From Isoetes taiwanensis (Eukaryota > Streptophyta > Lycopodiopsida > Isoetales > Isoetaceae): 64,000 nt of DNA. Positions within the stretch are counted from its first letter, which is position 1. Each line of letters starts with the position of its first letter. Below are positions 3,942-62,200 of the stretch, piece after piece. The notes beneath the pieces were generated by a model. It ran no database searches and was not told where the DNA came from. It saw only the letters and a program-made list of their open reading frames with translations. The stretch lies in the NCBI GenBank assembly GCA_021234155.1, contig JAJEKV010000019.1:4006356-4070355 (forward strand), in the 5' to 3' direction. The translations under genes and the position numbers were made by a program.

Positions 3942-5689
3942 TATGTGGTGGCGCCACCTAAGGAGACATGTAATTTCCCATAAACCTTTATGCGGTGCCA
4001 CCTCACCTCTATATTAAGTATGGTGCAATTTCTTTGCACCTTCCTTAACCTTAAATCAATGGCCAAGATTTAACTTCTCTCATATCCGACGGTCCAGGCA
4101 TGTGGTTCATGCCCCATGCATGCCCATACATGCCCCCCATCAGATCAGAGGGCCACAATTGCGCCACCTCTGTTCTCCAAGAGTGAACGGCCGAGATCAA
4201 CACCCATATATAACCTGTTCATGATGCCCCAGCATGTGATATACGTTTATATATATTAATGACAAGTATTTATACTATGAGGAGTGTACGAAGTCGATTG
4301 GTGACTTACTAAGAAGTCATAGTCAAAGTTGCAGTCACAGTGAAATAAAAAAAAGATATCAGTAACTAAAAGTGTAGTTACTCTTGCCATGGATATTATC
4401 TTAATTGTTTTTATTCAATGAGCATCCATTCCTGGTGTCAGCGTGCGGGGTGTCTTTGGTTTAGATAAGTCGAATTCAATGTCTCCTCTACCAAGTAGCA
4501 TAAGCGTATTTGTTGAACAGCCTACAGAAAATGCATCCACACACACTTGCAACCTACTGAAATTGTGAATGTAGCTCGTTGTTATATTCCTAATCATCTC
4601 AAACAAGTGTCAGCATGTAGAATAATTTGACAACTTGGTGAGTATCATGCCAGATAACTTGTTCGACCATGTGCTCCCTTGACTGTTGAAAAAGGAGAGA
4701 ACCCATAACTTGAGGTTTTGCATTGCCAACAACCTTGGGTGCACCTTTCAACCGGCCAACGTCAACAATGCTAATTCTTATTTTACACACGAACTTTTAT
4801 TTCACATTCAAAGCCATTCACGGACCTTCATTATTGAAGATTTGGATAGAAATTATAGGCGTGAGCGTAAAAGTTGATTTACCATTTACCTGTTGTGTTG
4901 CTTGACTTTCATGCTTTACAAAAGTATATTTACCCACATTTGTTACCTATGTACAAATGTGTGTGCTCGAAGTAAAAAAAAACTTGTTTACAAAATGTAT
5001 AAGTCAAGTTAGATAAATCGAATGTAAGGCTTGAGCAACCATCTTCTCAAAATTCTTTAAAGAATCCCCCATATTGTATGGGATATAAGGGATGAATGCG
5101 TGTTAAATCGAGAAAATACATGATGATGACCTCTCTCTCAATGTAGTTGATTTAGGATGGAACTAGAGATGGTTGGTTGTATGGGCTGAGATTTCTTTTC
5201 AATGTGTGTGTTGCATTGACCAGGTGCAAAAAGCCTGATAGAATGTTAAATCTAACATTGCACAATGCAAAGGTTTACTTCCATAACTCTAAGTTGGGGG
5301 CAAAATAGAACAAGATCAAGCATATAGTATAGTATCCCGACATCAAACTACGTTAATTGTTGTGGCATGATTAAAACTGTAAGCATGATGTAGACTACAT
5401 GTTAGTTACATGCATGTCAGTTTCAATTACATGTTAATTACATGCATTTCACATTCTTCCTTTCTTTTTCATTAGATATCTAAAGACCAAGAAGCTAATC
5501 TAACAGTGCCAATGAACTTACAATCTTTATTGCACCAGTCTAGCAGCTCAACTACAGCCACAGCCGCATACAATGGGTCGAAGTAGGAGCAAGGTCCAAA
5601 ACAAAAATCGGCCCTTCCAGAATATTTTCTAGACCAAGTAGACAATAGAATTTACCTTTCACCGTTTTGAAACTTGTTGTTTTGAAGCT
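3942..5689. other. Intergenic, no gene recognised
   Basis: AT-rich sequence with scattered short frames on both strands, none with a recognisable motif. Nothing else supported. Confidence 0.4.
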
Positions 5690-6615
5690 TGTTGGTTGGC
5701 CGTAAGAATTTTATCATAACTTTCAAACGTAAGCTCTATCTTCCCAGCAAGAGTATCCATCAAAAAGATCAAGGGAAGACCTAAGAATAATGCTAGGCAT
5801 ACAATTTTCAAATTCCTACCGTAAATGGCCCAAATCAAGGGGGCGTCACCTTGTAGAACCTGTCAAAACCACGTGCATCAATGGGAGGGGGCGATTTTTT
5901 ACCCTTTTCCGTATGTATACTAGGGGTCATAGGGGTTTTGGAATGTTCTTCTAGTTGTAAAACCATACGGAAAGGGGTCAAATTTGCCCATCAAAACACG
6001 TATACTAGGGGTTTTTCGGCTACCCTATGTACGCAGGTGGCATATCCCGTATAAAGAAGGTGGATCCCCCGGGGCCCAAATATGCCAAAATGCATTTGCT
6101 GTTCTAATTTTACAGCAGTGTAGAAAGAGAGCCATAACTTGAACAAGCAAACTCTGTTTATCAAGCATGAGCATGCATTAAAAAGTTCAAAGAATTATCT
6201 ACGAAAGTCGTTAGGTACATGTTTTTCAAATTCATTGCATAAACATGTCAAGTAAACCAGAATGCTCTAAATCCAAGGCCTGCTTTCTGGCTGGCCATAA
6301 GAACTCTAATATAACTTTCAAATGCAAGCTCTATCTTTGCATCAAGAGTATCCGTTGAAAAGATCAAGGGAAGACCTAAGAATATTGCTAGGCACACAAT
6401 TTCAGATTTGTAATCGTAAATGGGCCAAATATGGCAAACGCATTTGTTTGTTCTAATTTTACAAAGAGCGTAGAAATATGGCCATAACTTCAGCAACCAA
6501 ACTCTGTTTCTCAAGCATGAGCATGCATTGAGAAGCCCAAAGAATGATCTACAAAAGTCACTAGGTACATATTTTTCAAATTCATTGTGTAAACATGTCA
6601 AATAAACCATAATGT
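5690..6615. repeat. Tandem duplication, two ~340-bp units
   Basis: Unit 1 (5690-5835 continued at 6073-6262) and unit 2 (about 6283-6615) align along their length, sharing landmarks such as AAGATCAAGGGAAGACCTAA and CAAGCATGAGCATGCATT at about 85-90% identity. Unit 1 is interrupted by a 237-bp insertion that unit 2 lacks, so unit 2 acts as a natural empty site. The 161-codon minus-strand open frame across unit 2 is not conserved in unit 1 and is discounted. Confidence 0.7.
5836..6072. mobile_element. 237-bp insertion with 9-bp target duplication
   Basis: Exact direct repeats GGCCCAAAT flank it at 5827-5835 and 6073-6081, and the parallel unit at about 6.42 kb has the uninterrupted site. The ends are loosely inverted (left CAAGGGGGCGTCACCTT, right complement CCGGGGGATCCACCTT). 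A 9-bp duplication with inverted ends is typical of Mutator-like non-autonomous elements. It encodes nothing. Confidence 0.6.
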
Positions 6616-9558: not shown

Positions 9559-12500
9559 ATGGAAGCGACGAATCCCCTTTGCCGGAGGAAAGAAAATTTG
9601 ATGGTACTCACAAAAATCCCTTTTTTGTTCAGCTGAAGAATGACATAATCTCCTTGTGCTTTTAGAAAAAGATAAAGGTGTGTGTCAGAGTCCGGCCATA
9701 TTGCTTCAACTTGAAATCAGCTCAATGTGGCCAACATCAGCGCACATGGGTAAGAAGGCTCATATTTCCGTCTGCAGACAGGCCATCTATATCTTGAACA
9801 TATAAGATTGAATCTGAATTTGTGTCTCGTTGTTCCAGATTATAGATCCAGAGAGGCATGCATTAACCTTGCAAGTTTCAAGAACCAAGACATCTGATGG
9901 CAAAGGAAGTAAGAAGCCATTTGATGGGGATAAACTATATAAAGTGGATTATGTCCAGGATGATACTATGCTTCCTCACCATGACATCGAAAAAACGAGA
10001 GAATCACAAGAACAAATGTATAATGCCATTGGTCTTCCATGTGTCGACCATGCTATGGCTGGACATAATGTTACGGTATGATTATCCGCTTTCAATAACT
10101 CCAGACACCGTTTTAGATTCTAATCTTCAAAGTTTGAGTGAAACATTATGGTCACTTTGTTTTTGTGTTATTAAAAATTATGCCATTTCAGATTGTTGCG
10201 TATGGGCAAACAGGAAGTGGAAAAACATATACTATGACTGGCGATGGCACATATGCAGGAAGGGGCATAGTATGTCTCTGTTGTGCATGTTTAACATTGT
10301 AATGCAGCAAAATGGTCTTATTTGTGTAGCAAAATTGCAGGTCCCAAGGCTGGCTAATGAACTTATATGTAGAACACAGAGCATGAGGGAAAATGGCCTG
10401 CAATTAAATATACAGGTTGTCACTTTTCTCTTTCTAGAACCAAAACGTGTTCATGCAATTAACGTGCCTTGATTCTTGTCCTGGTTTGAAAATTCTAGCG
10501 CAAGTTCTCATTTGCAAAAGATCAAAGTATTTAAAAAAGTGACACCTTGCTTTCTCGTATAGCTTGGCAGGTTAGCTACCTAGAAATATATAAGGAGAAA
10601 ATACGAGACCTCTTAAATTTTGAAGGGGAACCCTTTGATCTAGACTATCAGAAAGACCAGAATGTAGGAAAGATGGATGAAGTAACAGATGACGATTGCT
10701 TTTCTATTTCTAGTGATATGGAGAGTTGTTCCAGCATCAGCCAACAAGACACAACAGAAACCATCAGTGTTGATGAGGAGGACATTCAAAGCATAAAGTG
10801 TCTTGGAATGTCTGCTAAAGCATCTTCAAACTTGTTAAAAAAGAATCGTGTATATGCAGTAAAACCAAATAAAGAAAAGACCAGTGGACAACATGCTCAA
10901 TCTTCAACATCAAGAATGGCCACTTCCCTGAACAAAAAGTTTTTGAGAATAAGGGAACATCCAGTTGCTGGACCATTTGTTGAAAATTTGACATGGAAAG
11001 AAGTCAGAAGCTGGCTAGAAGTTGAGAGACTCCTTAAACATGGAACAGCAAATCGCACAATAGGAGAGACAAATAAAAATAAAGATTCAAGCCGCAGCCA
11101 TACCTTACTTACAATTAAGTTAACTTGGGTAAGTTACCTACCAAGGCATGATGTTTGGGATTAGATAGAAAATAGACTCCCCACTTACAGTTGTCATTAC
11201 AGGAATCTTTGGCTTCTGTCAGCTACCTTAATCTTGTGGATCTTGCAGGCAAGTTTCAAATCTGATCAACCTGTTCTTTCCTGTATTCACAGTGTTTTCC
11301 CATGGCAGGAAGTGAGAATTTAAATAACACAAAGTCATTGGATAAGGAAAGGTTCTTGGAATCTAAATGCATTAATCGTTCCCTTACACTCTTAAATGAA
11401 GTAAGTTGAAGTAAAATGGTTATTTCTAGCCTCATATTTCAGATTCAGCATGTAGATAATGAGCTTAAAAACAGTATGTGATAATTCAGTCCCTATTGTT
11501 ATCCAACCCAGGCTTCTGCAAAGTCTGATACCAAATGATACAGGTTATCTTGAATTTATCAGCAAATTCATTTGCTTCATTTCGTAGTTCAGCATTGACG
11601 TGGCTGTTGAGGGACTCCCTTAAAGGCACGGGACGAACTTACATGGTTGCAAACATTTCTCCAGACGAGCAGGTTAGCATCCAGAAACTTTCGAGCATTC
11701 ATAATTTAGATGTATACATGTAAACATAAACGTTGTATGCAGGATATATCTGAGAGTCTCAGGACATTACATTACGTCACAAAAGCTGGAAACATTCAAA
11801 GATGCCCTTCTACAATTGAAACAAAATCCAAGGATATCGAAATGTTGAAGATGAAGGATGAAATATGTTTTCTTCGTGATTTGCTTGCGACATTGAGAAC
11901 AAATGAAAATAACATTGATTTTCATCCAATTTATGGACCCTCTGTGGATGCCGCTGTTCAGGTAATCTTTAGACCTAACAATCAGTGAAAATAAGTTATG
12001 TTCTCAGGCGAACAAAGTAATCTGGAATACAGGCACCATAACACCATTTACTTACACTTACTAATTTCTAAGGACCCGAGTCTATAAACTGAATTTTTCT
12101 CTCCTCTTACTAAATCCCATATTCCTTCTACTGGAACTGCCACTGGACTTGGATCTTCGGTATTCCTTAGTCAGACTTGTACAATAACAATGTCCCTGCA
12201 AATTTGTCTTTTTTGACTTAAATGAAAAACGTTTACCCTTATCCAACGGCTTGCCATTTTGCTTCTTTTTAGCAATAACTTCTTCTGCAATGCCTCAAAG
12301 TACCATTGGAGAAAAATATCCACATTACTCGCCATTTTATATGTCCCTTATACAGCATAGGCTTGTTTTCATTTTAACATGTATGTTATAATCATGTTTT
12401 GATTTCTCTTCTTTTGATTCGATTGAATAGGTAGACTTGCCAAGGGAATTGGAATGTGAGGAGGAAATTGCAAGAAAGCATTTGGCATCAAACGGTGCAT

Positions 12501-17916: not shown

Positions 17917-17989
17917 GCGCTTGTAGCTCAGTGGATAGAGCGTTTGTTTCCGAAACAAAAAGCCATAGGTTCGATCCCTATCTAGCGCA
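17917..17989 (+). tRNA. tRNA-Arg (anticodon CCG)
   Basis: A complete 73-nt cloverleaf: acceptor 17917-17923 with 17982-17988, D arm GCTC/GAGC, anticodon stem TTTGT/ACAAA with loop TTCCGAA (anticodon CCG at 17950-17952, reading CGG), T arm ATAGG-TTCGATC-CCTAT, discriminator A. The acceptor stem has one T-T mismatch at its sixth pair, and CCA is not encoded, as expected for a nuclear gene. A T-rich stretch just downstream may serve as the Pol III stop. The mismatch leaves some doubt about function. Confidence 0.88.
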
Positions 17990-18792: not shown

Positions 18793-19563
18793 CTAGGCTT
18801 CTCGAACACGGTGCTCATTGATATGAGCCGTGTTTGAAGGTATGATCCAAGAGCTAGACAAAGTAAACTTCCCAGATCGAATCATTCTAGCCAAGGTATA
18901 TAACAGACTAGCAGTCAGCCTATGATTCCCATGGTAATCCACAAAATGTGCAGCTCGATTCAAAAGATTCTTATTGTTAAGAACAACAAGGTTCTTCGTA
19001 TCATCAGCTCCCCATCTCAAATACAGGTCTTTTCCCTTCTCAATAGCAGCGTCACTGACATTATGGAGGTGACAAACATAATGGACTTTCTCGAAATCCT
19101 TCATGCAATACCCAATCATGCCTTCAAAACAATGAAGGCGACTGTTTTTGAGGGCCTTGCATACCAGAATCACACCCGGTGGCTTTGAAACCCAATTGAA
19201 ATCCTTTTTTATAGCATCGTTCATGGCCCTGGGGCCCTTGAACCGAGCTCTAAAAATAGCCTGGCAATGCAAGTGATCAACACTTGCACCACGCTCCATG
19301 GCCACGGCTCCCGCCAAACACCTTCGATTGCAAAAATCAACAAGGGCATCATAAGAACTTGTGGGCACATCTTGCCCAGAAAGACCTAAGGTCACGTTGA
19401 CATCTATGACACTCCAATCCTAACCAAGAGAAGCACCAGCAGAATGTCCTCCAGTATGAGGCTCTCCAGAAGAGGACCCAGTTTTCAAAGAACTCAGAGA
19501 AGGAGGCACAGCCCAAGCAACACCCTTCCCATTCCTCGTTGCTCTCTTCCAAGCAAACCCGGC
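18793..19563 (-). pseudogene. HUH-endonuclease (Rep-like) ORF, Replitron-type candidate
   Basis: The minus-strand frame from 19422 to 18793 is open for about 208 codons. It holds the two signatures of HUH single-strand endonucleases in the right order: a His-hydrophobic-His motif (DHLHCQ, codons at about 19278-19261) and, 52 residues later, a YxxK motif (GYCMKD, about 19113-19096) that would carry the nicking tyrosine. A basic/aromatic C-terminal region follows, ending in HRVREA. An in-frame TAG (19420-19422) separates it from a further open Ser/Gly-rich stretch (to 19563) that looks like the former linker. No helicase domain is present, unlike Helitrons or viral Reps. Replitrons, described from green algae and other eukaryotes, are transposons with a lone HUH protein, and the C-terminal part would suit that family. 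The family is inferred from motifs, not a search. It is truncated and probably dead. Confidence 0.55.
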
Positions 19564-40623: not shown

Positions 40624-41066
40624 CCTTTACAATCCGTGACCCCTACTTGGGACTCAGCAATCACTAACTTGGGCCCAGAAAGAACCTTTATGAGCATATC
40701 GGCCTGCTGTAATGCTGTCGATATATATTCCACATTTATCTCCCTCTTTTCCACCTCATCTCGTATGAAATGATGGAGTATTTCAATGTGCTTCGTTTGG
40801 GAGTGATGAACATCGCCAACTCCGCTCTTGTTATCGCAGTATAATATGGTGGCATCTGTTAATAAACTCCCTAATTCTCTAAGCATTCTGCGTAACCAAA
40901 TTATTTCTGATGCCGCTATGGATACTGCTACATATTCGGCTTCTGTGCTAGATTTGGCAACGCACTCTTGCTTCTTGCTTGCCCATGATATTGCAGCATC
41001 TCCAAGTTTACATATATATCCAGAAGTGGACTTCCTTGTCATCAACGTCTCCTCCCTAATCCACAT
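40620..41066 (-). pseudogene. copia RNase H domain
   Basis: Open frame with STSGYICKLGDAAISWASKK, CVAKSSTEAEYVA (the conserved SSTEAEY motif with acidic catalytic residues), YCDNKSG and HSQTKHIEI...HHFIRDEVE, all standard copia RNase H landmarks. It degrades the RNA of the RNA-DNA hybrid. It is offset in frame from the upstream RT. Confidence 0.92.
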
Positions 41067-41694
41067 CTATATACCCAATCTTATTTTCTGCAGATTTTGA
41101 AACACAAATCCCATGTGTCATAGTTCCTTTTAAATACATGATCACCCTCTTTGCCGCCAACCAATGTTGTACTCCCGGATTATTATTGTGTCTGCTAAGT
41201 AAATTGACTGCATACATGATATCCGGCCGAGTACAATTTGCAATATAAAGTAAGCACTCAATCAAAGACCTATATGGTTTTGTTTCCATTTTCTTCACCA
41301 CTTCAAATGTTTTTGGACACATCTCCTTGTAAATCCTTACTCCTGATGCCATCGGTGTTTTTGCCGGATTACAGCCAAGCATTCGGAACCGAGCTAAAAC
41401 TCCTTTGATGTTTTGTTCTTGTGTAAGGTAAAGTACTCCGCCTTCTCTATCTCTTCGAACTTCCATTCCCAGTAACTTCACAAGATCTCCCAAGTTTGTC
41501 ATCTGGAATCGGTTTTTCAACAGATGTTTGCAATTTTCCAGCATGGTTTTGTGATTGCGTACAATGACACAATCGTCTACATAGAGGGCCATAATTAAAC
41601 ATTTATCCCCATCCTTTTTCATGTATAAATTCCCTTCAGTTTTAATTTTATAAATCTGGCGGAGTTCAAGAACCTGTTCATGCACAAATACCAC
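41056..41694 (-). pseudogene. copia reverse transcriptase, C-terminal half
   Basis: Contains the catalytic LYVDDCVIV (YVDD box), LGMEVRRDREGGVLYLTQ and YRSLIECLLYIANCTRPDIM, the usual copia RT end. It is separated from the N-terminal half by a stop/frameshift at about 41700-41770. Confidence 0.93.
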
Positions 41695-41768
41695 TGTCTA
41701 GCTGCTTGTCTAAATCCGTAAATAGCCTTTTTCAATTTGCACACTACTTCATTGCCTTGCTCATATCT

Positions 41769-42008
41769 CTACGGCTGCTCCATATAGATTTCTTCTTCTA
41801 AATCCCCATTCAAAAAAGCGGTCTTAACATCCATATGATTTATCTCCATGTCTTTCTGTACTGCAATCGCAATGAGTGCTCTTAGGCTAGTTATTTTGAC
41901 CATAGAAGAGAAGGTATCTTTATAATCCACGCCTTCTTCTTGGATATATCCTTTTGCAACCAAACGTGCTTTATACTGCTCTATTGATCCATCTGCCTCA
42001 GTAGTCAT
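41769..42008 (-). pseudogene. copia reverse transcriptase, N-terminal half
   Basis: Encodes YKARLVAKGY, the aspartate-bearing MDVKTAFLNGDLEEEIYMEQP and the intervening fingers region. The upstream KWIFKIKRK portion lies beyond the short retroposon inserted at 42033-42170, so RT is split by that insertion. Confidence 0.92.
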
Positions 42009-42032
42009 TATCTCCGCTTGTCTAGTATCATC

Positions 42033-42170
42033 ATTACTGCAAAGGTTTTTCCCTTGAACACCTTTCGAGGCAGGGGTTTTTTAATCCTAGTAGTAATGAT
42101 CGTACTAGCCCATTATATGGGTCCCATGACCTATTGGTCTCCGTGGACGTTAAAAAAACTATTCTATTCT
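42033..42170 (+). mobile_element. Short (TATTC)n-tailed retroposon inside copia RT
   Basis: Starts ATTACTGCAAAGGTTTTTCC and ends GGTCTCCGTGGACGTTAAAA then ACTATTCTATTCT. It is the same family and same 5' limit as 39305-39448. It splits the conserved RT block between KWIFKIKR and YKARLVAKG. No unambiguous target duplication was seen. Confidence 0.7.
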
Positions 42171-42173
42171 TCC

Positions 42174-42963
42174 TTTTGATCTTAAAAATCCATTTACTCC
42201 CCACAACATTCTTATCCTTTGGTCGAGGTACAAGTTCATATGTACCTGTCTTCTTGAATGAATCTAACTCATTCTGCATAGTTTCTTTCCATTTGTCTGC
42301 ATCTTGTCCTTTCATTGCTTGTCCCACCGTCTCTGGTTCCACTGTACAAGATATAATCTTTGGTTTTCGTGGTCTTGTTGTTCTTCCACTCTTTTCACTA
42401 CCGTACATTCCTGTATCAAATGGCACTTCAGCTTTCAGACATTCTGCATCACTTCCTCGGACTCGTCCTGCTGTTCTACTACTTCCTTCTGCTGCTTGGT
42501 GTCCAGTTTTTGGTGCACTATCGACCTCAACAGTCTCATGCACCCCCTCTGATTCAAGTTCCGGCTCATGAGGTGCACTATCAATCTCTATGACCTCATG
42601 CACCTCATCCGGTCCAATGTCAGTCTCAACATCTATAATGTCGGGTTTTATGACTTCATCAGTCTCTGAATCTATGTCTGCTTCATCAAACTTAGGTGTT
42701 GAAACTCCTGTTTCCTCCTCATTACTTTTTAGACCATGTTCCAAATCTTCTGTCGGTATCCATGTCTTAGCTTTATGCTGGTCTAGAGTCCTTCTGTCTC
42801 TATACAGTACACACTCATTAAACACTACATCTCTACTCACATACACTTTGCATGTGACTGGGTCATACAATCTGTATCCATTCGTCTCCTCATCATATCC
42901 TACTAAAAACGTGCACACGCTGCGGTCATCTAGTTTCTTTCTCAATTCTTCTGGTACCAACAT
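42174..42963 (-). pseudogene. copia integrase C-terminus, linker and RT start
   Basis: Starts with CTFLVGYDEETNGYRLYDP and SRDVVFNE (the GKGY/post-integrase region), followed by an acidic variable linker and WKETMQNELDSF...YELVPRPKDKNVVGSKWIFKIKR, the first RT block. Confidence 0.9.
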
Positions 42964-48268: not shown

Positions 48269-49420
48269 TTGGAGCATTCTGCAGGATGGAGCATCTTCTC
48301 CTGGTGCGGCACTATTGTGGCAATCTCTTCGCCATTGTGTGGCATTTGGAAAGTCGTCTGTGCATGTAGAGTTGCCCTGGGCACTGTTGTATGGTCTCCG
48401 GCCTTTCCCACATGCATCCCCTTTTCTCACGGGGGTGTTGCGGGCTTGGGATCACGTGCGTGTGCTCTTCCAGCTAGATTATGCCTCAGTTTATCACCAC
48501 TCTTCTCCTTTCTTGTGGGTTCCTCTACCTCCTGGCATTACTTGCCCTTGGTCGCCACTTTGTGCATGCTTTCGGGACTTGAGGCCCGTTGGAGGCGAGC
48601 TGCTGTGCTCACCTTGGAGGATTGGTATTGGGATGGTCAGCTAGCTTCGTGGGAGTTCTTTCGAGCTCGCTTTCGCCTGAAGGACAGTGACCGGGCTATC
48701 TGGGAACAAGTGGCGGGGAGTATTCCGCTACACATACCTATAGTCCCTCAGGGTGATGTGGTGGTGCAGGTTTGGAAGGTTCATCCAGATGTTGTATCTT
48801 CTTGTTTTGTGCGGTCTTGTTACCGGGTGTTGGCTATTCATGACACTCTGCCCCCTTCAGGCAAGTGGTCTCTGCAGCTTCCGGGTTCTCGATGGCGCTC
48901 GGTTTGGACGTGGACATGGAGCTCACTTCCCCCACCGAAGGTTCGGGTGCTTCTGTGGCAGGTGGTGCACCGCTGTATCAGGGTGAATGTCCTTGTGAGT
49001 CAGTTTAGGCCGGGTGTGAGCCCTCTTTGCCCTTGTTGTGGCCTTCATCGTGAGACTGTGGAGCATTGTCTGGTTTTATGCCCTCACTTGCAGGTTGCCT
49101 GGGATTGGGTCAGGGCTCTGTTTCAGGTGAGATTGAATAGCCAACAATTGCTGCTTCATGTATATCCTGGTGCTTGGCCGCTCGTACGGCAGCAAGCCTT
49201 GCATCTGTGCGTGGCTTGGTTGGTGTGGTTGATTTGGAAGCGGCGGCGGTTGTGGATCTTTCAGGGGATTCAGCAGCCTGCAGCCTCTCTGATTCCTCGA
49301 CTCAGGTACAAGCTATTTCAAAGCTTTTTGGTGTTCCCGGGATTAGTAGAGCGGAAGTTTTCCATTTGGCGGGACTTCTTGGGTGTGGTAGATGGTGATG
49401 GTCAGTTTGTACAGCAGTAG
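48269..49420 (+). pseudogene. LINE C-terminal domain with zinc-binding cluster
   Basis: The longest surviving LINE frame, 383 codons. PPPKVRVLLWQVVHRCIRVN followed by PLCPCCGLHRETVEHCLVLCP is the RT-associated zinc-binding region of plant L1 elements (CxxC...HxxxxC). It ends ...DGDGQFVQQ with a stop 120 bp before the 3' end. The homologous region is seen on the minus strand at 59.3-59.8 kb. Confidence 0.88.
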
Positions 49421-50356: not shown

Positions 50357-50650
50357 CACGAAAGTTTCCCCTTCAAAAACCCTTTGCCTTCACACAGTTT
50401 CCCCTATTGAAAACCTCCACCAAGAAGGGTTTTCTGTCATATTAGACAGAGTCCATGCAATGATTCTCAAATGCTTTTGAATGATCGATTCCATTTCGAA
50501 GATGCTCGATTGATCTGTCTGCCGAATTGAAATCCTTTGCAGTCGTGTGGATCAAATTCAGGTTTTTAGCAGGCTTTACGATACGTGGATGGAATCACTG
50601 TGATGGTTGTAGCACAAGCTCAATCCAGATCGACCCAATAGTGTAACCTG

Positions 50651-51368
50651 GGCTCAGGATACTTTTACCCTTGATTCGGTGATCCCGGAGATAAATTTAC
50701 CGGCCTCCGGGATCCTGGGTCTCTCTCGACGGGGTCCGTTGGGGAGACCCCGTTCTGAGGTACGGCAGACGCCACGTCGGCCCAGACCATCCACGCTGTC
50801 CAAACCCCCATGCAATCGTGGTCGTCCGCGCCTCAGAGATCCCCGCCTCCGGGATCATCCACGCGATCCCCTCCTCCGGGATCCCCACGGTCGCTGGCTG
50901 TTAACGACGGACGATATCCGCCGAGGTGATCCCCTCCTCCGGGATCCCGGCACCGGGACGCGGATCCCCTTCTGGGGATCACCCGACAGGTGGCTGATGC
51001 TTGGCGGACTCTATCCGCCGAGTTGATCCCCACCTCCGGGATCCCCGGGCACCCCGGACGCGGATCCCCTCCTCCGGGATCACCCGGCCGTGGCTGATAA
51101 CGGCGGACGCTATCCGCCGTGGTGATCCCCTCCTCCGGGATCCCCGACACCCCGGACCCGGATCCCCTCCTCCGGGATCACCCCCCTGGCTGATAACGGC
51201 GGACGCTATCCGCCTATGTGATCCCCTCCTCCGGGATCCCCGAGCACCCAGACGGGGATGCCCTCCTCCGGGATCACCCCGCGTGGCTGATAACGGCGGA
51301 CGCTATCCGCCGTGGTGATCCCCTCCTCCGGGATCCCCGATATGGTGACGCGGATCCCGTGACTTGGA
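50651..51368 (+). repeat. Left terminal inverted repeat
   Basis: The outer ~190 bp are unique-looking (containing GGTCTCTCTCGACGGGGTCC). The inner part is an array of ~90-bp units, each with palindromes like GATCCCCTCCTCCGGGATC separated by ACGGCGGACGCTATCCGCCG-type segments, themselves inverted repeats. GC content is far above that of the surroundings. Confidence 0.92.
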
Positions 51369-51645
51369 ATTCACTGTTAGATGCAAACCGAGGTGGTTTG
51401 ACCATACCGTCCTCCGGGATCACCACGTCATTTGCCCCTGTGATTCCGGAGGCCAGAATATGAGAACGTTTGGACGGTGGAGATAGCGGCGTGGACTAAT
51501 CAGGTGGTCCAAGTTTGAATTTTGCCAGCCCATGCACGGACAAACCAATACAATGAAAACACGTGGACGTTCTGAGACCACCCTCCGGGATCACCATCTG
51601 AGTGTGGTTCATCCCTGTTGCGTGTTGATGTCGAAGTAGCGAGGC
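51369..51645 (+). other. Subterminal spacer of the transposon
   Basis: Contains two degenerate CCTCCGGGATCACC units (near 51410 and 51583) and otherwise unique sequence, likely including the promoter of the adjacent plus-strand ORF. Confidence 0.5.
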
Positions 51646-52199
51646 ATGGAGGAGGAGCGCAATGCGGCTGTGGCTGCGGCAGCTATGGACGAGTTAGAGG
51701 AGAAGAGAGAAGAGGTAAGTTCAAGGGCTTTAAACAAGCGTTGTCATTTTGTGTTTAATGTTTTTATTTCCAGCTTAGGGCTGAAATACAGCCCGAAACA
51801 CCTCCAAATGGCCTGTTTGATCATGGCAACTTACATTGGTATCCTGAAGAGCATTTTGTACCTGATATTCAAGGGGGTGGCCAGATGCTTGTTTGGACTT
51901 GCTACATCCATACAGACCGGGTCCAAGATTTCGTTCTTGGGGAGCAGAGGAATTGTGAAGCACCTGCCAATTTCTATCTAAGAAGTTCAGTGCCTGAGAG
52001 AGTGTTAAAAAGACCCTACAAGGATTCCTATATGATCCTCCGGGATCCCGCGTCCGCCTGCCTGGTGATCCCGTCCTCCATCACAGGATTGAATATGTTA
52101 ATATATTATTTATCATATCCCTTAACCATTGAAATATGTCTTGGAATAACCATTGAAATATGTCTTGGAATAGTGGAAACATTGAAGTATTACTTTTAA
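51646..52199 (+). CDS. Transposon-internal ORF, two exons, unassigned
   Basis: Exon 1 51646-51714 (MEEERNAAVAAAAMDELEEK...) and exon 2 from about 51773, joined by a short GTAAGT...TTCCAG intron. The joined protein continues with a hydrophilic region including LFDHGNLHWYPEEHFVPDI, then DRVQDFVLGEQRNCEAPANF and VPERVLKRPYKDSY. The last phrases loosely recall the segment upstream of SWIM zinc fingers in plant transposase-like proteins (low confidence). The frame then runs through a GATCCC palindrome unit and ends in low-complexity repeats, so it is probably a truncated former transposase or accessory gene. Confidence 0.4.
52036..52083 (+). repeat. Internal palindrome unit
   Basis: A lone GATCC-type unit (ATCCTCCGGGATCCCGCGTC...GGTGATCCCGTCCTCC) of the same kind as in the 53.1-kb array, lying within the open frame of the plus-strand ORF. 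Confidence 0.8.
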
Positions 52200-52344
52200 T
52201 AAGCTTTGAAACATTGAACTTAATACAATGGCTTAAAACTGACATTCCAATTCGGAATCACTCTGAATCTACCTCCTGCACTGTTGCCATGGCTTCTGCC
52301 CGGACGTCCTCCTCAGTTACATCTGGCACACCGCAGGGTAGTCT

Positions 52345-52830
52345 CTACATCATGTGATCGAAGATATCGCATAGGGTTGGCTCAGACCCCTCTAGGACAT
52401 CCCTGATCAGAACCTTCTTTCGCAGCCTCCGTGCAGCATACATTTCCTCGAAGCAGGCTTTTAGGGTGTTGCCTTCCCAGACAACGTCCGTAGCTAGCAA
52501 ACGCTTCAAAGCCTTGCCCTGGATAATACACTTCTTCAATTCCCAAAGCAATGCCCTATGGGTTGGCCTACTACCGGGAACATAGTCAAGAGGCCTAGGG
52601 GTCTCCCTGAATTCCCCATTCTCCACGGTCTCTGCATGAAGCATGAGGGGATCATGAAAATGAAAGTAGAACATGAATATGAAGCTTACTTCTGACGTTT
52701 TGATGCCGTCAGGTTGGGCGAGCTCTAGGCCCACATCCTCCTGAATTTCATTCAAGTGGACGAGAATATCCTCAAGACTATGGGCATTGATGGCACTGCT
52801 CTCAGCAACCTGTTGTCGGGTCCTCACCAT
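52345..52830 (-). CDS. Transposon-internal ORF, unassigned
   Basis: A 161-codon frame, starting MVRTRQQVAESSAINAHSLE, with a helical, charged N-terminus (LEDILVHLNEIQED), a probable intron or insertion around FIFMFYFHFHDP, then a basic region (ALLWELKKCIIQGKALKRLL, AARRLRKKVLIRDVLEG). I do not recognise a family. A short further open stretch in the same frame follows the stop (DVTEEDVRAEAMATVQEV), so the original protein may have been longer. Confidence 0.4.
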   Translation of the reverse strand: MVRTRQQVAESSAINAHSLEDILVHLNEIQEDVGLELAQPDGIKTSEVSFIFMFYFHFHDPLMLHAETVENGEFRETPRPLDYVPGSRPTHRALLWELKKCIIQGKALKRLLATDVVWEGNTLKACFEEMYAARRLRKKVLIRDVLEGSEPTLCDIFDHMM

Positions 52831-53096
52831 TTGGCTTGAACAGTAAGCAATTGAACTGAGAGACTGCTACTGAACTCAACTGAGAGACTGCTACTGAACT
52901 CAACTTTCTACCAAGAACATGTAAGGCAAGAGTATATATAGACTCATGAGCCAACCGTTGTACTATCCGTTGTACAACGGTTAAGCCATGATTTCAATTT
53001 CTAAAGGTAAGACCATAGGATAAAAGGTTTACAGTTTAGCCGAGTTAAGACCATTGAACCTTGGACCATAGTACCAAAAAGTAATAAAAATACGTG

Positions 53097-53390
53097 CAGG
53101 GATCCCCTCCTCCGGGATCCCGCGTCCGCCTGCCAGGTGATCCCGTCCTCCGGGATCACATATTAATTAAAACGGGATCCCCTCCTCCGGGATCCCGCGT
53201 CCGCCTGTAATTTGATCCCGTCCTTCGGGATCACACACTAACGAAAACGGGATCCCCTCCTCGGGGATCCCGCGTCCGCCTGCTTGGTGATCCCGTCCTC
53301 CGGGATCACACACCCCTTAAAAATAGATCCCGTCCTCCGGGATCCCCCGTCCGCCTGCTTGCTGATCCCGCCCTCCGGGATCACAGTATT
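53097..53390 (+). repeat. Internal array of ~60-bp palindrome units
   Basis: Five head-to-tail units, each pairing GGATCCCCTCCTCCGGGATC with a GATCCCGTCCTCCGGGATCA half, separated by CGCGTCCGCCTGC linkers and short AT-rich spacers (ATTAATTAAAAC, CTAACGAAAAC). The same palindrome core builds the TIRs. Confidence 0.9.
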
Positions 53391-53781
53391 GAACATGTTA
53401 ATATATTAGTTATCATAGGCCGACCATTGAAATTATGAATATATTAACCATTGAAATTATGAATATATTATTAACCATTGGAATATGTCTTGGAACAGTG
53501 GCAATAATAAACTTTGATGTTGAAACTATGGTGGAAGCTTTGAAGCATTAATCTTTGGTGCATTGAGTCATTGCACTGTCATAAAACAATAAAATTACAC
53601 TAACTCAAAAGCCAAAATTACATTCAAGTGTTCCAGTTTTGACATTGAAGTCTTGAAGAAGATATTCACATTCAAGAGAATTACATTCAAGTGTTTCAGA
53701 TATTCACATTCAAGAAAATATTCACATTCAAAGTTTTTTGAGATATTCACATTCACAAATTTTTAGATCTTTACCAGAATG
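53391..53781 (+). repeat. Short local repeats
   Basis: AT-rich repeats: ACCATTGAAATTATGAATAT twice (53425-53475), similar to the run at 52128-52175, and ATATTCACATTCAAG-type units several times (53665-53755). Non-coding. Confidence 0.6.
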
Positions 53782-54977
53782 TCAAGGACCATGTACCAGC
53801 AAGCGGGTCTGGATCCTGCTATCACCCGTGTCACCCTGGGGTAAGTAAAAGGTGGACTTCCCTGCAGCCAAGCAATCGTGTAGTTTCTGGAGCATTATCT
53901 TGAAGCCTGACCTCATGCAATCTATGTCTTCTTTTTTGAACCAATCACGGTTAATGAGAATCTGCATTAAAACATGAATTTAGCCATGAACTGAAAATTT
54001 GGACACAAAAAAAAAGAAACAACAAACATAAACTCAAAGACTCACATTATCCTCCTTGCCACTGATGTCTTTAACAAATTTCTTCACATAATTTATGACA
54101 TACACACCACAGTCCGAATTATTGTGCTGTTGGGGAGTTTCTAATGGGGTGCATTATGCAATGCACCTTCCTCATGCCTCCACCTCTTAAACACGTCTGT
54201 GAGGAATCTGCAAGTATGAATAAGAAATTAGCTTCAATCATAATGCAAAAGATTAAATATTTCGAGATAGAGAGGAATACTTACAGTGTCACAAAATCTC
54301 GGGTAGATGCATGCAAGGGAGCATATGAATCAAGGTGCAGAATGCAAGGGCAGGGCTTTCCAAGCCGAGCACATGCCAGGCCATCAGTCACTAAGATGAA
54401 AAGGCTCCAATGGCCACTAAGAAATAGCAAATTGAAAGGCAATTAAAATAGATTTAAAACTTAAATAATCAAGTGATCGTGAGTTTACCCAAAGATTGAC
54501 AGGAATATAATAGAATTGTGCTTTGTGCGGATCTTCCAACGCGTGCCCTACCAAAGCGGGTTGTCGAGGGGATGAGCTTGGCAAACCGCTCATAAGCCCC
54601 TCGCCAACCCAGGCCTTGCTTCCACTCAAGAACAACCCGAATGCGGCGGGGATGCAAGAAGACATGATGACACCTTTTCTCGGATAGGAATTGAGTGCGA
54701 AATTACCTGCATAAACCAATTGAGCAATTGAGTGCAATGAAAACGAAATTGAAGAAACTTAAGAACTTAAAACTTACAGGAGATAAGAACCAATGCAATC
54801 CGAGTCCACATCGCTCTCCAGATCCCCGAGGCCAGAAGGGATTGTCATAAATTTTAGGGCCTCGGCTTCTTGGATGTAAAACTCGACATTTGGCCGACTT
54901 CTTTGCCGACCTTGATGAAGGGGCTCTCAACCACCACAGGGAAATTTAATGTGAAGGGCACCGCCATCGATCGGCAT
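53782..54977 (-). pseudogene. Ulp1-like (C48) cysteine protease, disrupted
   Basis: Five exon-like segments on the minus strand: about 54977-54778, 54706-54490, 54416-54285, 54207-54046, 53961-53782, with GT-AG borders. The last three show the SUMO-protease catalytic set: GHWSLFILV (His), ILHLDS (Asp), PQQHNNSDCGVYVINYVKKF (Gln and Cys; Cys codon 54109-54111). The final exon encodes ILINRDWFKKEDIDCMRSGF. Upstream, FYYIPVNL just before the His exon is also typical of the family. Frames do not join at two places (around the 54.49-54.42 kb intron and near 54150), so it is inactive or misassembled. Ulp1-type domains are repeatedly carried by plant DNA transposons; here it sits between the TIRs. 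Confidence 0.7.
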
Positions 54978-55026
54978 CAACACACCTCTTTGGTAGTCCA
55001 AAACAGAATCTAGAAAATGCACAGGA

Positions 55027-55709
55027 TCCAAGTCACGGGATCCACGCGCCACCATATCGGGATCCGGGAGGAGGGGATCACCACTACGGATAGGCCCCCC
55101 AAGATCCCTTATCGCCCATCTGGAGGGGGTGATCCCGGAGGAGGGGATCCGCTGGCCCCGGGTGCCCGGGGATCCCAGGAGGAGGAGGGATCAACTCTAC
55201 GGATAGAGTCCGGCTGCTATCGCGGGATCCCGGAGGAGGGGATCACCACTGGCAGATAAGGCCCAAGTTATCACCACCACGGGTGATCCCTGAGGAGGGG
55301 ATCCCAGATCCTGGGTGCCCTGGGATCCCTGAGGTGGGGATCAATCTACGGATAGAGTCCGCCAAGATCACCACCACGGGTGATCCCTGAGGAGGGGATC
55401 CGTCCGGGTGCTCTGGGATCCCTGAGGAGGGGATCACCTCTACGGATATCGCCCACCGCACGGCCGGCGACCGTGGGGATCCCTGAGGAGGGGATCAGGT
55501 GGATGATCCCTGAGGCGGGGATCTCGAGGCTTGGACGGCCGCTGAACCGCGGGGGTTTGGACGACGGGGATGGTCTGGGCCGACGTGGCGTCTGCCGTAC
55601 CTCAGAACGGGGTCTCCCCAACGGACCCCGTCGAGAGAGACCCGGGATCCCGGAGGCCGGTAAATTTATCTCCGGGATCACCGAATCAAGGGTAAAAGTA
55701 TCCTGAGCC
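55027..55709 (-). repeat. Right terminal inverted repeat
   Basis: Inverse complement of the left TIR. The outer ~190 bp are near identical. The inner palindrome array differs in unit number and in a CTCCTCAGGGATC variant, showing that the two arrays have diverged or been shuffled. Confidence 0.92.
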
Positions 55710-55717
55710 GTAACCTG

Positions 55718-56270
55718 GTGGAGCCTCCTGCAGCGTGGCACGACATGAAGCCGCTCCCCTTGGCTTTTGTTTTTTTTTTTTTTGGGGAGGGGGGTTGGGT
55801 TTTGGGCGAGGTTGGGGGGCAGCCGTCGACCAAAATTGCAGGTGTACTTGCACACTTTGTTAGACCTTTTACAATTCTTGACTAGGATATTAATAATAGG
55901 GCAATTTGCGACAGAGGGCGCTTTGAAAACTTGTACACAGCATTAATGGCACATGTATGAGTATGGCTCCACACACTTCTTTGCAGCAGAAATTTTCCTT
56001 TTCTACAATCTCTGTTCTTTCGTCCCTTGTCTTTTCTGGATCAGGGGTACATTTAGGAACTTGTGCGGAAGTAGATGCGTCGGAGAACAGATCAAACATT
56101 TTAAGGTCAACAGCATGAAGGAGCTGCATGCTGTGCAATAGCAATTCTTAAGCCTTGGAATGTTCTGCTCAAGCTGTGTTCCTTTTGAGGTGAGTATTTT
56201 CTGCAGAGTTTGATCCCGTTAGAAATTTTGCCAGTTCTAAGCTATTGACCTTTTGTAGACATACATCAAA
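55718..56270. other. Upstream region of the LRR gene
   Basis: Holds a G/T-rich tract near 55766-55830 and AT-rich sequence. A promoter is expected here but no clear motif was marked. Confidence 0.4.
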
Positions 56271-59200: not shown

Positions 59201-62200
59201 ATTTGAAAATACTGAATCCAGATACGTTCCGTCATTTTTGACTTTAGGGAGGAACACTCTTAAGTTGTCAATATCTTTTTCTGGGCCACCGTAATAACAC
59301 CATATACAGATGAATAAATGCTCTGAAAGATGTGATGTTGGCGATGCTCCCATATCGACCACAGGAGCCAACCAGAACCAAGATGGAATGCCCTCTGTTT
59401 AGCTGGGGCCATGCATTGGGATAGGATGCCAAGAGGATGCATCGCCAGTCCAATGCACTGTTAAACAAACCTTGTAGCCAGGACCACGTCGGCTGAACCT
59501 CCGAACAATAGAAGAGACAGTGCTCAAGAGTCTCAACATCTGAAAGGCAGAGCGGGCCTATTGCAGATATGCAAGGATCATAACGATGTCGGAAGGCATT
59601 AACACGCAGGCACCTGTGAATAACCTGCCACCATAGTACAGAGACTTTAGGGTGAAGCAACTTATCCCAAAGCCATCGCCATGTACGATGCAAAGTGGGA
59701 TGTGGAACCTGTATGTGCCACCCATCTGGCAACTGGAGGGGCTGTGGTGCTAAAAGAAGGCGATATACTGATTTGACAAAGTGCTTACGTTTGTGAATAT
59801 TTTCATGACAGTCCCAAGGCACCTTTTGTCACACCAATCTGCACCATAAGGGGCAAATTTTCTGCGACCTTCTCCCATACAGACGCATCCCAACGAGAGA
59901 GTAGAAACTTTGCCTGAAATTCAGGCCAAGAACGTAGGCGACCGGCTTCATACCATGCTTGAATAGAGATAACACCTGCGAGAACCGTCTCTGTGTAAGG
60001 GGATGAATTGATGTTGCCAGTGGAGTAGAAATGTGCAGGATTTCAAGAACCCTTCCTTGGAAGGTTTTTGAGGGAAAAACTTTACAGTTATGAACATACT
60101 GATGAATATGTACATGCACATGGTCAAAGTTTCACCTGTCAAACCTCCATGATATAAGATGCTAGTACCACATCCGCAAAAGCACATGTAGTGATTGATT
60201 AGGCGTAATCAAACTAATATTTTTTCTTCGGTATGCTGGGATACGACATTTGGATTTAAAGAAAAAGCAAGCCCAAATGAGCTATAGGCGTGTTTATTAC
60301 ACCCTAAATCCATATGGTTAATCAACACACCAAAGGGGCAGATCCTTTGTGAAAATCTTTATCCAATGGGCCCATACCCCACAGACCATATCAATTCCTC
60401 CTCTTCCTCTAGATGCTTGCCCTCAGCAATACACCAATGTTGCTATGAGAAATTGAATCTTGGGCCCAATACCAAATGTTGCAACCTAAATCCATAGGGC
60501 TAACCAGCACCCCAAAGGGACGAATCCTTGACAGAAATCCCTATCCAATGGATCCCAACATTTCCAAGGCTTTATTCCATACCCCACAGACCAATCAGTG
60601 TCGTATATGCATTATATGCCATCATGCAGGTCTAATTTGTCCCTTTTTTATTTATTTACCATGCCTATTTTTTCACAAGTTTAAGCATTTTTTTGCCAAA
60701 TTAGATCTTAGTCATGTGAGGTCGCCTTGGGGATGGGCTCATTCAGACCCTCCTCAAATTGTGAGCCTCATTGCAAATAGCATGTAATTACAAATAATCT
60801 TTGATATCTTCTATTCTCTTCATAAGGTTGATTAACAGCATTGCTATATGTGTGATACAAGTGCGGGACCAACATTATTTCTCGCAGCTTGCATATTGAC
60901 TTGAACATTTATTACATACATTTAGATATGGGTATAATGGACCCATATGTCGAAATATATGATGACATTCAGTAGTGCGTGCTATATTGGTTGAGGAATT
61001 TAGTGTTTGCATTGTTGTAGCATAATTGACAAGGTTTAGCCTTGTGACAAATGATTTACTGCAATTTCGTATTAAAAAAGTTCTATGGCAATGCACATCA
61101 ACTGATGCAGGTCATTCTATCACACAATTTGGGAGACAACTGTTCCAAGTATATGACGTCTTTGGCTTGATCATTCGATCACACAATTTGGGAGACAATT
61201 TCTCCAAATATATGACATCTTCGACTTGATATTGGAGTCAAAATAGTAATTCAAAATGGCTGACCCAACCATTAGGGAAGTTTGAGACCATGGAATCGGT
61301 CTTCGGTCAAACAACCCACCCCAACATAGTATAACATGGTATAAAGATAAAGATATTATAAAGCATAAATGGAGGGGATCCAAACAATGATATAGATTCG
61401 ACTGTACCCCCCTTTAGAGATCTTTCGAGATAGTGAGACTTGTCTCTGATCGAAACCCCACCACATAAAATTCAACATGTTATACTAAAAAAAAGTGTTT
61501 ATTATGCTGATGGATTTATGGGATAGTAAGATCTCTATTCTCTGACTAGGTTCGAGCTAAACCAATATCTTGACAAGGCAGATAGACTTGCCACTTGGAG
61601 GTACCATGGCCAAAGCTATGGATGAGATGAAACTTATTCATTCGAGAGTAATTATGATAATTTAGAAGGGCTAGGATTGTCCAAAATGGTAGGGTTCAGG
61701 CTTGGTAGCAAATGATATAAATTGAGGGATGCCTATGGGGTATGGGATAAAACTTGGAAAGTTAGGGCCTACTAAGTATCCACCCTTTTGGTGGTTTGAT
61801 TATTATTAGAAGTGCTAGTTTCATAACGTTTGGTATCAGAACTCAAGGTTAATTTTTTTTGGTGGTGTCCACGTGCTTGAGTGCAAGCATCCCAAGAAGA
61901 GGAGGAAGTTAAGGACCACTAAGGACACAAGGAGGAACATATGATCAGGAATGCTTATAAAATATGGGATAAAAACCTGGAGAGGTTAAGACCCACTAAG
62001 GATCTATCCTTTGAGTAGTTGGTTATCCTTAAGTATTTAGATTTGTAACAAGATGGAGATGATATCATACGAGGGATGCTTATGGGTTATGGGATAACAT
62101 CGAAGGTCACCCACATGCCATATTTTTATTGGAGATGAAAAGATATGTTAATCTCCATGAGGCTACCTCAGGTATGTCGTATCACATTACTTAAGAGTTC

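Follow-up and report, generated by a model that had tools for sequence, protein, structure and literature searches.

A probable foldback-type Mutator-like transposon of Isoetes taiwanensis with ends built from arrays of oriented near-palindromes

The 5,059-bp insertion at positions 50651-55709 of a 64,000-nt stretch of Isoetes taiwanensis DNA (the window, to which the coordinates below refer) is, with a probability of about 0.9, a non-autonomous, internally deleted, foldback-type Mutator-like (MULE) cut-and-paste transposon. The assignment is made because relatives with the same ends carry a MULE transposase and show 9-bp target duplications. Mutator elements of the foldback type with complex ends are best known from nematodes and insects, and this one adds a lycophyte plant to their hosts. 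The window copy and its junctions comprise the following features.

50643-50650: left target-site duplication, GTAACCTG, 8 bp; the 9 bp GTAACCTGG would be expected, one G having probably been lost
50651-50837, plus strand: outer left terminal inverted repeat, ahead of the palindrome array, recognized by its identity to the other end and by genome matches
50838-51335, plus strand: left palindrome array, in which 10 GATCCC-N-GGGATC sites with exact arms are interspersed with GGCGGA-N5-TCCGCC segments, site spacings mostly ~37 and ~61 bp
51646-51714, plus strand: transposase remnant, coding segment 1, MEEERNAAVAAAAMDELEEKREE, matching the C1072 and C1108 copies
51774-52035, plus strand: transposase remnant, coding segment 2, ended by a deletion at ~52035/52036; the MULE catalytic core is gone
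52348-52830, minus strand: small gene, a 161-aa open frame of unknown function, partly present in C1072 and C1108, with no Pfam match
53101-53382, plus strand: internal palindrome array, 8 sites, with the small gene on one side and the Ulp1 gene on the other
54043-55031, minus strand: C2H2-Ulp1 gene remnant, comprising the Ulp1 (C48) part and the C terminus of the part that bears the C2H2-like stretch
55060-55523, minus strand: right palindrome array, 8 exact-arm sites, in orientation opposite to the left array
55524-55709, minus strand: outer right terminal inverted repeat, recognized by its identity to the left end
55710-55718: right target-site duplication, GTAACCTGG

Both ends of the insertion open with an identical 30 bp, GGCTCAGGATACTTTTACCCTTGATTCGGT. 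The outer 184 bp of the two ends are 92% complementary, and the outer 187 bp are 93.5% identical to the opposite end. The longest collinear inverted alignment between the ends covers 497 bp at 87%, and further in the ends are arrays without a common register. A sequence-only reading of this DNA had placed the boundaries at 50651 and 55709 and proposed a DNA transposon with matching ends, all of which was borne out. Its inverted ends of ~700 bp stand as the extent of the arrays but not as a single clean repeat. Mutator elements characteristically have terminal inverted repeats longer than 100 bp, as is the case here, and the best-scored matches in a genome search with the outer 190 bp were 93-100% identical.

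The window copy is flanked by an 8-bp duplication, GTAACCTG, with a G next to it on both sides. Eight long relatives with both ends were taken for a check of the duplication. Exact 9-bp duplications were found in five relatives (C1108, C1046, C907, C301, and C1072), and C1013 has 9 bp with one mismatch; C898 sits within a GTG repeat, which leaves its duplication ambiguous, and comparison of the flanks gave no matching duplication at C1034a, nor at C1045, a copy besides these eight. The target duplication of the family is 9 bp. Since the relatives show 9 bp and a G adjoins the 8 bp on both sides, one G has probably dropped out at the left junction of the window copy. Unoccupied sites were also found. 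The C907 copy, for example, is inserted in a repeat, and at least 40 paralogs of its target (89-96%) continue across the junction, several of them ungapped and with a single copy of the 9 bp. A tandem paralog in the C1046 flank is unoccupied too. The element family has been mobile in the past. For the window copy, one paralogous site spans the junction, a weak match (77%), and the genome search gave no empty site across the junction for C1108. The exact 8-bp duplication proposed earlier thus describes the window copy but not the family, which has 9 bp in the relatives and in the C907 empty sites. Mutator duplications measure 8-11 bp, usually 9 bp, and the five exact cases, the one with a mismatch, and the C907 empty sites all agree with this.

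The genes of the element are best seen in full-length-type relatives. C1072 (10.2 kb), C1108, and C301 encode a transposase on the strand corresponding to the plus strand of the window. In its catalytic region it matches Pfam MULE PF10551, at an E-value of 8.6e-19 that passes the curated cut-off, as well as a ZSWIM RNaseH-like family (1.7e-09). A CxxH (ICIWHV) and candidate D/D/E residues can be read from its sequence, and a sequence search of the PDB gave no relatives. The opposite strand carries a C2H2-like stretch (zf-C2H2, E 0.019, which does not reach the cut-off) followed by a protease domain of the Ulp1/C48 type (PF02902, E 7.8e-07). Judged by their order and strand, the two would form one gene. 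Between this gene and the transposase is the small opposite-strand gene. The proteins used in searches were joined by hand over frame breaks and probable introns, and the exon limits are approximate. Several copies keep individual coding segments open, and no fully intact copy was seen among those examined. Ratios of dN/dS for the transposase and C2H2-Ulp1 genes are scattered from 0.2 to 2.5, with most pairs below 1 and few changes.

The sequence-only reading expected transposase-bearing relatives in the host genome, and they are there. It also knew of no described superfamily with this design, a view that no longer holds, as Mutator (MULE) fits and PF10551 occurs in relatives with the same ends. 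Membership of another superfamily with 8-bp duplications (hAT, P, or KDZ), or of a new one, would accommodate the 8 bp seen at the window copy, a single copy. That value is not the family's, no matching transposase accompanies it, and the relatives combine 9-bp duplications with a MULE transposase, and such a membership is rejected as extremely improbable.

The window copy differs from C1072 by two large deletions, and the main blocks that remain are 92-97% identical, with the right end at 83%. One deletion removed ~2.9 kb, including the transposase core; the other, of ~2.3 kb, took out part of the C2H2-Ulp1 gene together with the inner right end, its junction lying between 55019 and 55125. 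The window copy has no intact transposase, the PF10551 region being deleted, and is therefore non-autonomous. Pack-MULEs are marked by a captured piece of a host gene between their ends; in the window copy, the coding parts that can be recognized are pieces of genes that the element itself carries.

The most striking feature of the element is its arrays. GATCCC-N5..9-GGGATC occurs 26 times within it (10 in the left end, 8 internally at 53101-53382, and 8 in the right end), compared to 0.003 per element expected from mononucleotide shuffles, and with exact arms it is absent from the other 59 kb of the window. This agrees with the earlier description of ends built of repeated near-palindromes with the same motif inside. 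A second inverted segment, GGCGGA-N5-TCCGCC, occurs four times in the left end, and spacing in the end arrays alternates mostly between ~37 and ~61 bp. Arrays are also present in C1072, C1108, and C301 at the position matching 53101-53382; in C1072 they occupy both ends and two internal intergenic gaps (sites 4279 to 4485 and 5435 to 5754 of that copy). Arrays have been retained at both ends of every long paired copy examined. The number and spacing of the sites differ from one end of a copy to the other and vary widely among copies; such long composite inverted ends with a variable number of subrepeats are typical of foldback-type elements. The ~250 ends with differing site numbers make up a large natural series with which to study the need of some transposons for long, arrayed ends.

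The genome searched comprises 1,110 contigs with 1,658,258,908 bases in all. A search that allowed up to one mismatch found 128 + 124 copies of the 20-bp terminus (control 0), and the exact ends listed include 28 head-to-head pairs, which span 1.7-29.9 kb and lie mostly near 10 kb. The exact 19-mer of the site occurs 1,513 times (control 0) and GATCCC-N7-GGGATC 5,552 times, versus 99 in the control. Of the 100 19-mers listed first, 64 are situated on the inner side of an exact element end, no more than 15 kb from it, and every one of the 25 listed within 1.2 kb of an end is on the strand of that end. The earlier reading had named as its own refutation a genome-wide palindrome satellite with no relation to the element ends; this possibility is mostly rejected by these 64 motifs, by the 25 strand matches, and by the lack of the exact-arm motif elsewhere in the window; 36 of the listed motifs remain, some of which may belong to decayed copies or sister families. 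One palindrome cluster, at G000:C12:64552-70139, consists mostly of a CACCTC-type spacer variant, and none of the exact family termini listed is on the C12 contig; it is perhaps a sister family. There is also a 257-bp miniature (L017, 9592-9848) in which 20-bp termini face each other within a 42-bp inverted repeat and whose flanks show no matching target duplication.

The searches with the coding regions reached further. At least 150 places, from 1,527 candidates, were scored for a transposase segment and fall into several identity groups, and the C2H2 region gave 96 matches. Sister MULE lineages have transposases 66-93% identical. The C2H2-Ulp1 protein appears to diverge faster than the transposase; at some loci (e.g., C1058 and C1038), the transposase segment is ~80% identical and the C2H2 region 44-47%, the two regions lying on opposite strands a few kb apart. 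Two contigs with similar transposases, C168 (93% identical) and C329 (86%), have no exact 19-mer in a listing that covers both. This is a hint of an array motif particular to one lineage, but the C168 and C329 copies may be truncated.

What the arrays do depends on whether the unit is conserved as a sequence or as a structure. Substitutions and covariation were counted over 345 sites from ten elements. The consensus is an oriented 19-bp near-palindrome, GATCCC[C/G]TCCTCCGGGATC. Substitutions per position number 0.028 in the spacer core (positions 9-12), compared to 0.056 in the right arm and 0.106 in the left. If the palindromes were hairpins or cruciforms, with a single strand of the excision DNA or of RNA folding as a requirement for transposition, transcription termination, or silencing, it would be natural that the left array folds as RNA far better than its shuffles (z -7.1) and that arrays also sit in intergenic gaps adjoining gene ends. 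However, compensated arm changes number 4, versus 5.45 expected by column shuffling, and the best conserved part of the site is the core, which a hairpin would leave unpaired. Selected hairpins, and with them the earlier reading of the nested palindromes as hairpins, are therefore not supported and seem rather improbable. What is conserved would be the oriented sequence and not base pairing. Compensation is not in excess and the left arm is less conserved than the core, so that the unit has the appearance of a directional binding site for a protein and not of a hairpin under selection. Of course, repeat homogenization alone could yield the pattern of core conservation. A striking palindrome pattern need not imply selection for a hairpin.

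The arrays are probably, in our judgment of the sequence data, a binding platform for a protein that the element encodes. Complete-type relatives, most often ~10 kb long, would supply a MULE DDE transposase from one strand and the product of the C2H2-like and Ulp1-protease gene from the other. The transposase, possibly with the C2H2-Ulp1 protein, would bind the oriented 19-bp near-palindromes that fill both ends, so that each end would be marked jointly by many weak sites. The two ends would then pair, and excision and insertion of the element would follow, giving rise to a 9-bp target duplication, while unequal exchange would change the length of the arrays. A less likely course of events is that an initial pair of binding sites was expanded by unequal exchange and replication slippage and that the extra copies have no function. 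The wide variation in array length and spacing fits such passive growth, as does the case of Tetris, a Drosophila foldback element that fed satellite arrays (PMC4079207), but the retention of arrays at both ends of all the long paired copies examined, the uniform orientation near the ends, and the strongly conserved core speak against it. Recognition of the ends by a binding protein, taken alone, does not explain the palindromes in the internal intergenic gaps. It is conceivable, if doubtful, that end and internal arrays are a shared platform for the C2H2-Ulp1 protein, which may set family specificity, and that the ends and this second gene coevolve as lock and key, apart from the transposase.

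Several known elements resemble this one in part, and foldback elements are thought to be mostly relatives of Mutator (PMC4079207). Tm1, a Mutator/Foldback family of root-knot nematodes, is likewise a foldback-type MULE with composite ends and 8-10 bp duplications, but its ends consist mainly of 13-15 bp tandem repeats (PMC3169594), whereas in the Isoetes element near-palindromes of 19 bp alternate with a second inverted segment, and this element also has an Ulp1 gene, internal arrays, and a plant host. Muta1 of Aedes aegypti, a MULE termed a type-2 foldback element, has 8-9 bp duplications and a terminal palindromic motif with subterminal tandem repeats; it differs in its 145-bp ends, 12-bp repeats, length of 3.2 kb, and single transposase (PMC5225508), compared to the far longer composite ends, ~10 kb, and several genes of the Isoetes relatives. 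Ulp1 domains are known in plant MULEs in either orientation, and KI-MULE combines a Mutator transposase with a reversed Ulp1 protease domain (PMC2528002). That arrangement is found here too, but KI-MULE has no terminal inverted repeats (PMC2528002), and those of the Isoetes element are very long. Plant MULEs with multiple long terminal inverted repeats have duplicated end sequences, proposed to aid recognition by the transposase (PMC3310237); they duplicate whole ends in tandem, whereas the Isoetes element arrays short sites. The Drosophila element Galileo works alike, with long foldback-like ends in which multiple binding sites for the transposase domain have been shown, but it belongs to the P-element superfamily, has a THAP domain, and is not related to the Isoetes element (PMC3688188). 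No description of palindrome-array ends in Mutator elements was found in the open-access literature searched. Judged against that literature, what is new is the combination of near-palindromic, oriented units with a second inverted segment, the arrays in intergenic gaps, and this host.

The surroundings of the transposon in the window hold other mobile elements. Two open frames matching zf-RVT (PF13966) flank it in opposite orientations, at 48269-49420 on the plus strand (E 1.9e-11) and at 59268-59822 on the minus strand (E 2.1e-08), and both are likely LINE remnants. A Copia-type retrotransposon fragment with RVT_2 and SH3-like matches lies at 41056-42963 on the minus strand. An open frame of 200 aa at 18793-19395, also on the minus strand, has a match to Pfam Replitron_HUH (PF21859, E 2.9e-18) and may mark a replitron-type mobile element. 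A match to the kinesin motor domain (PF00225, E 1.6e-20) at 10547-11164 on the plus strand is probably a host gene exon or a pseudogene, and Rfam places a tRNA gene at 17917-17989 on the same strand.
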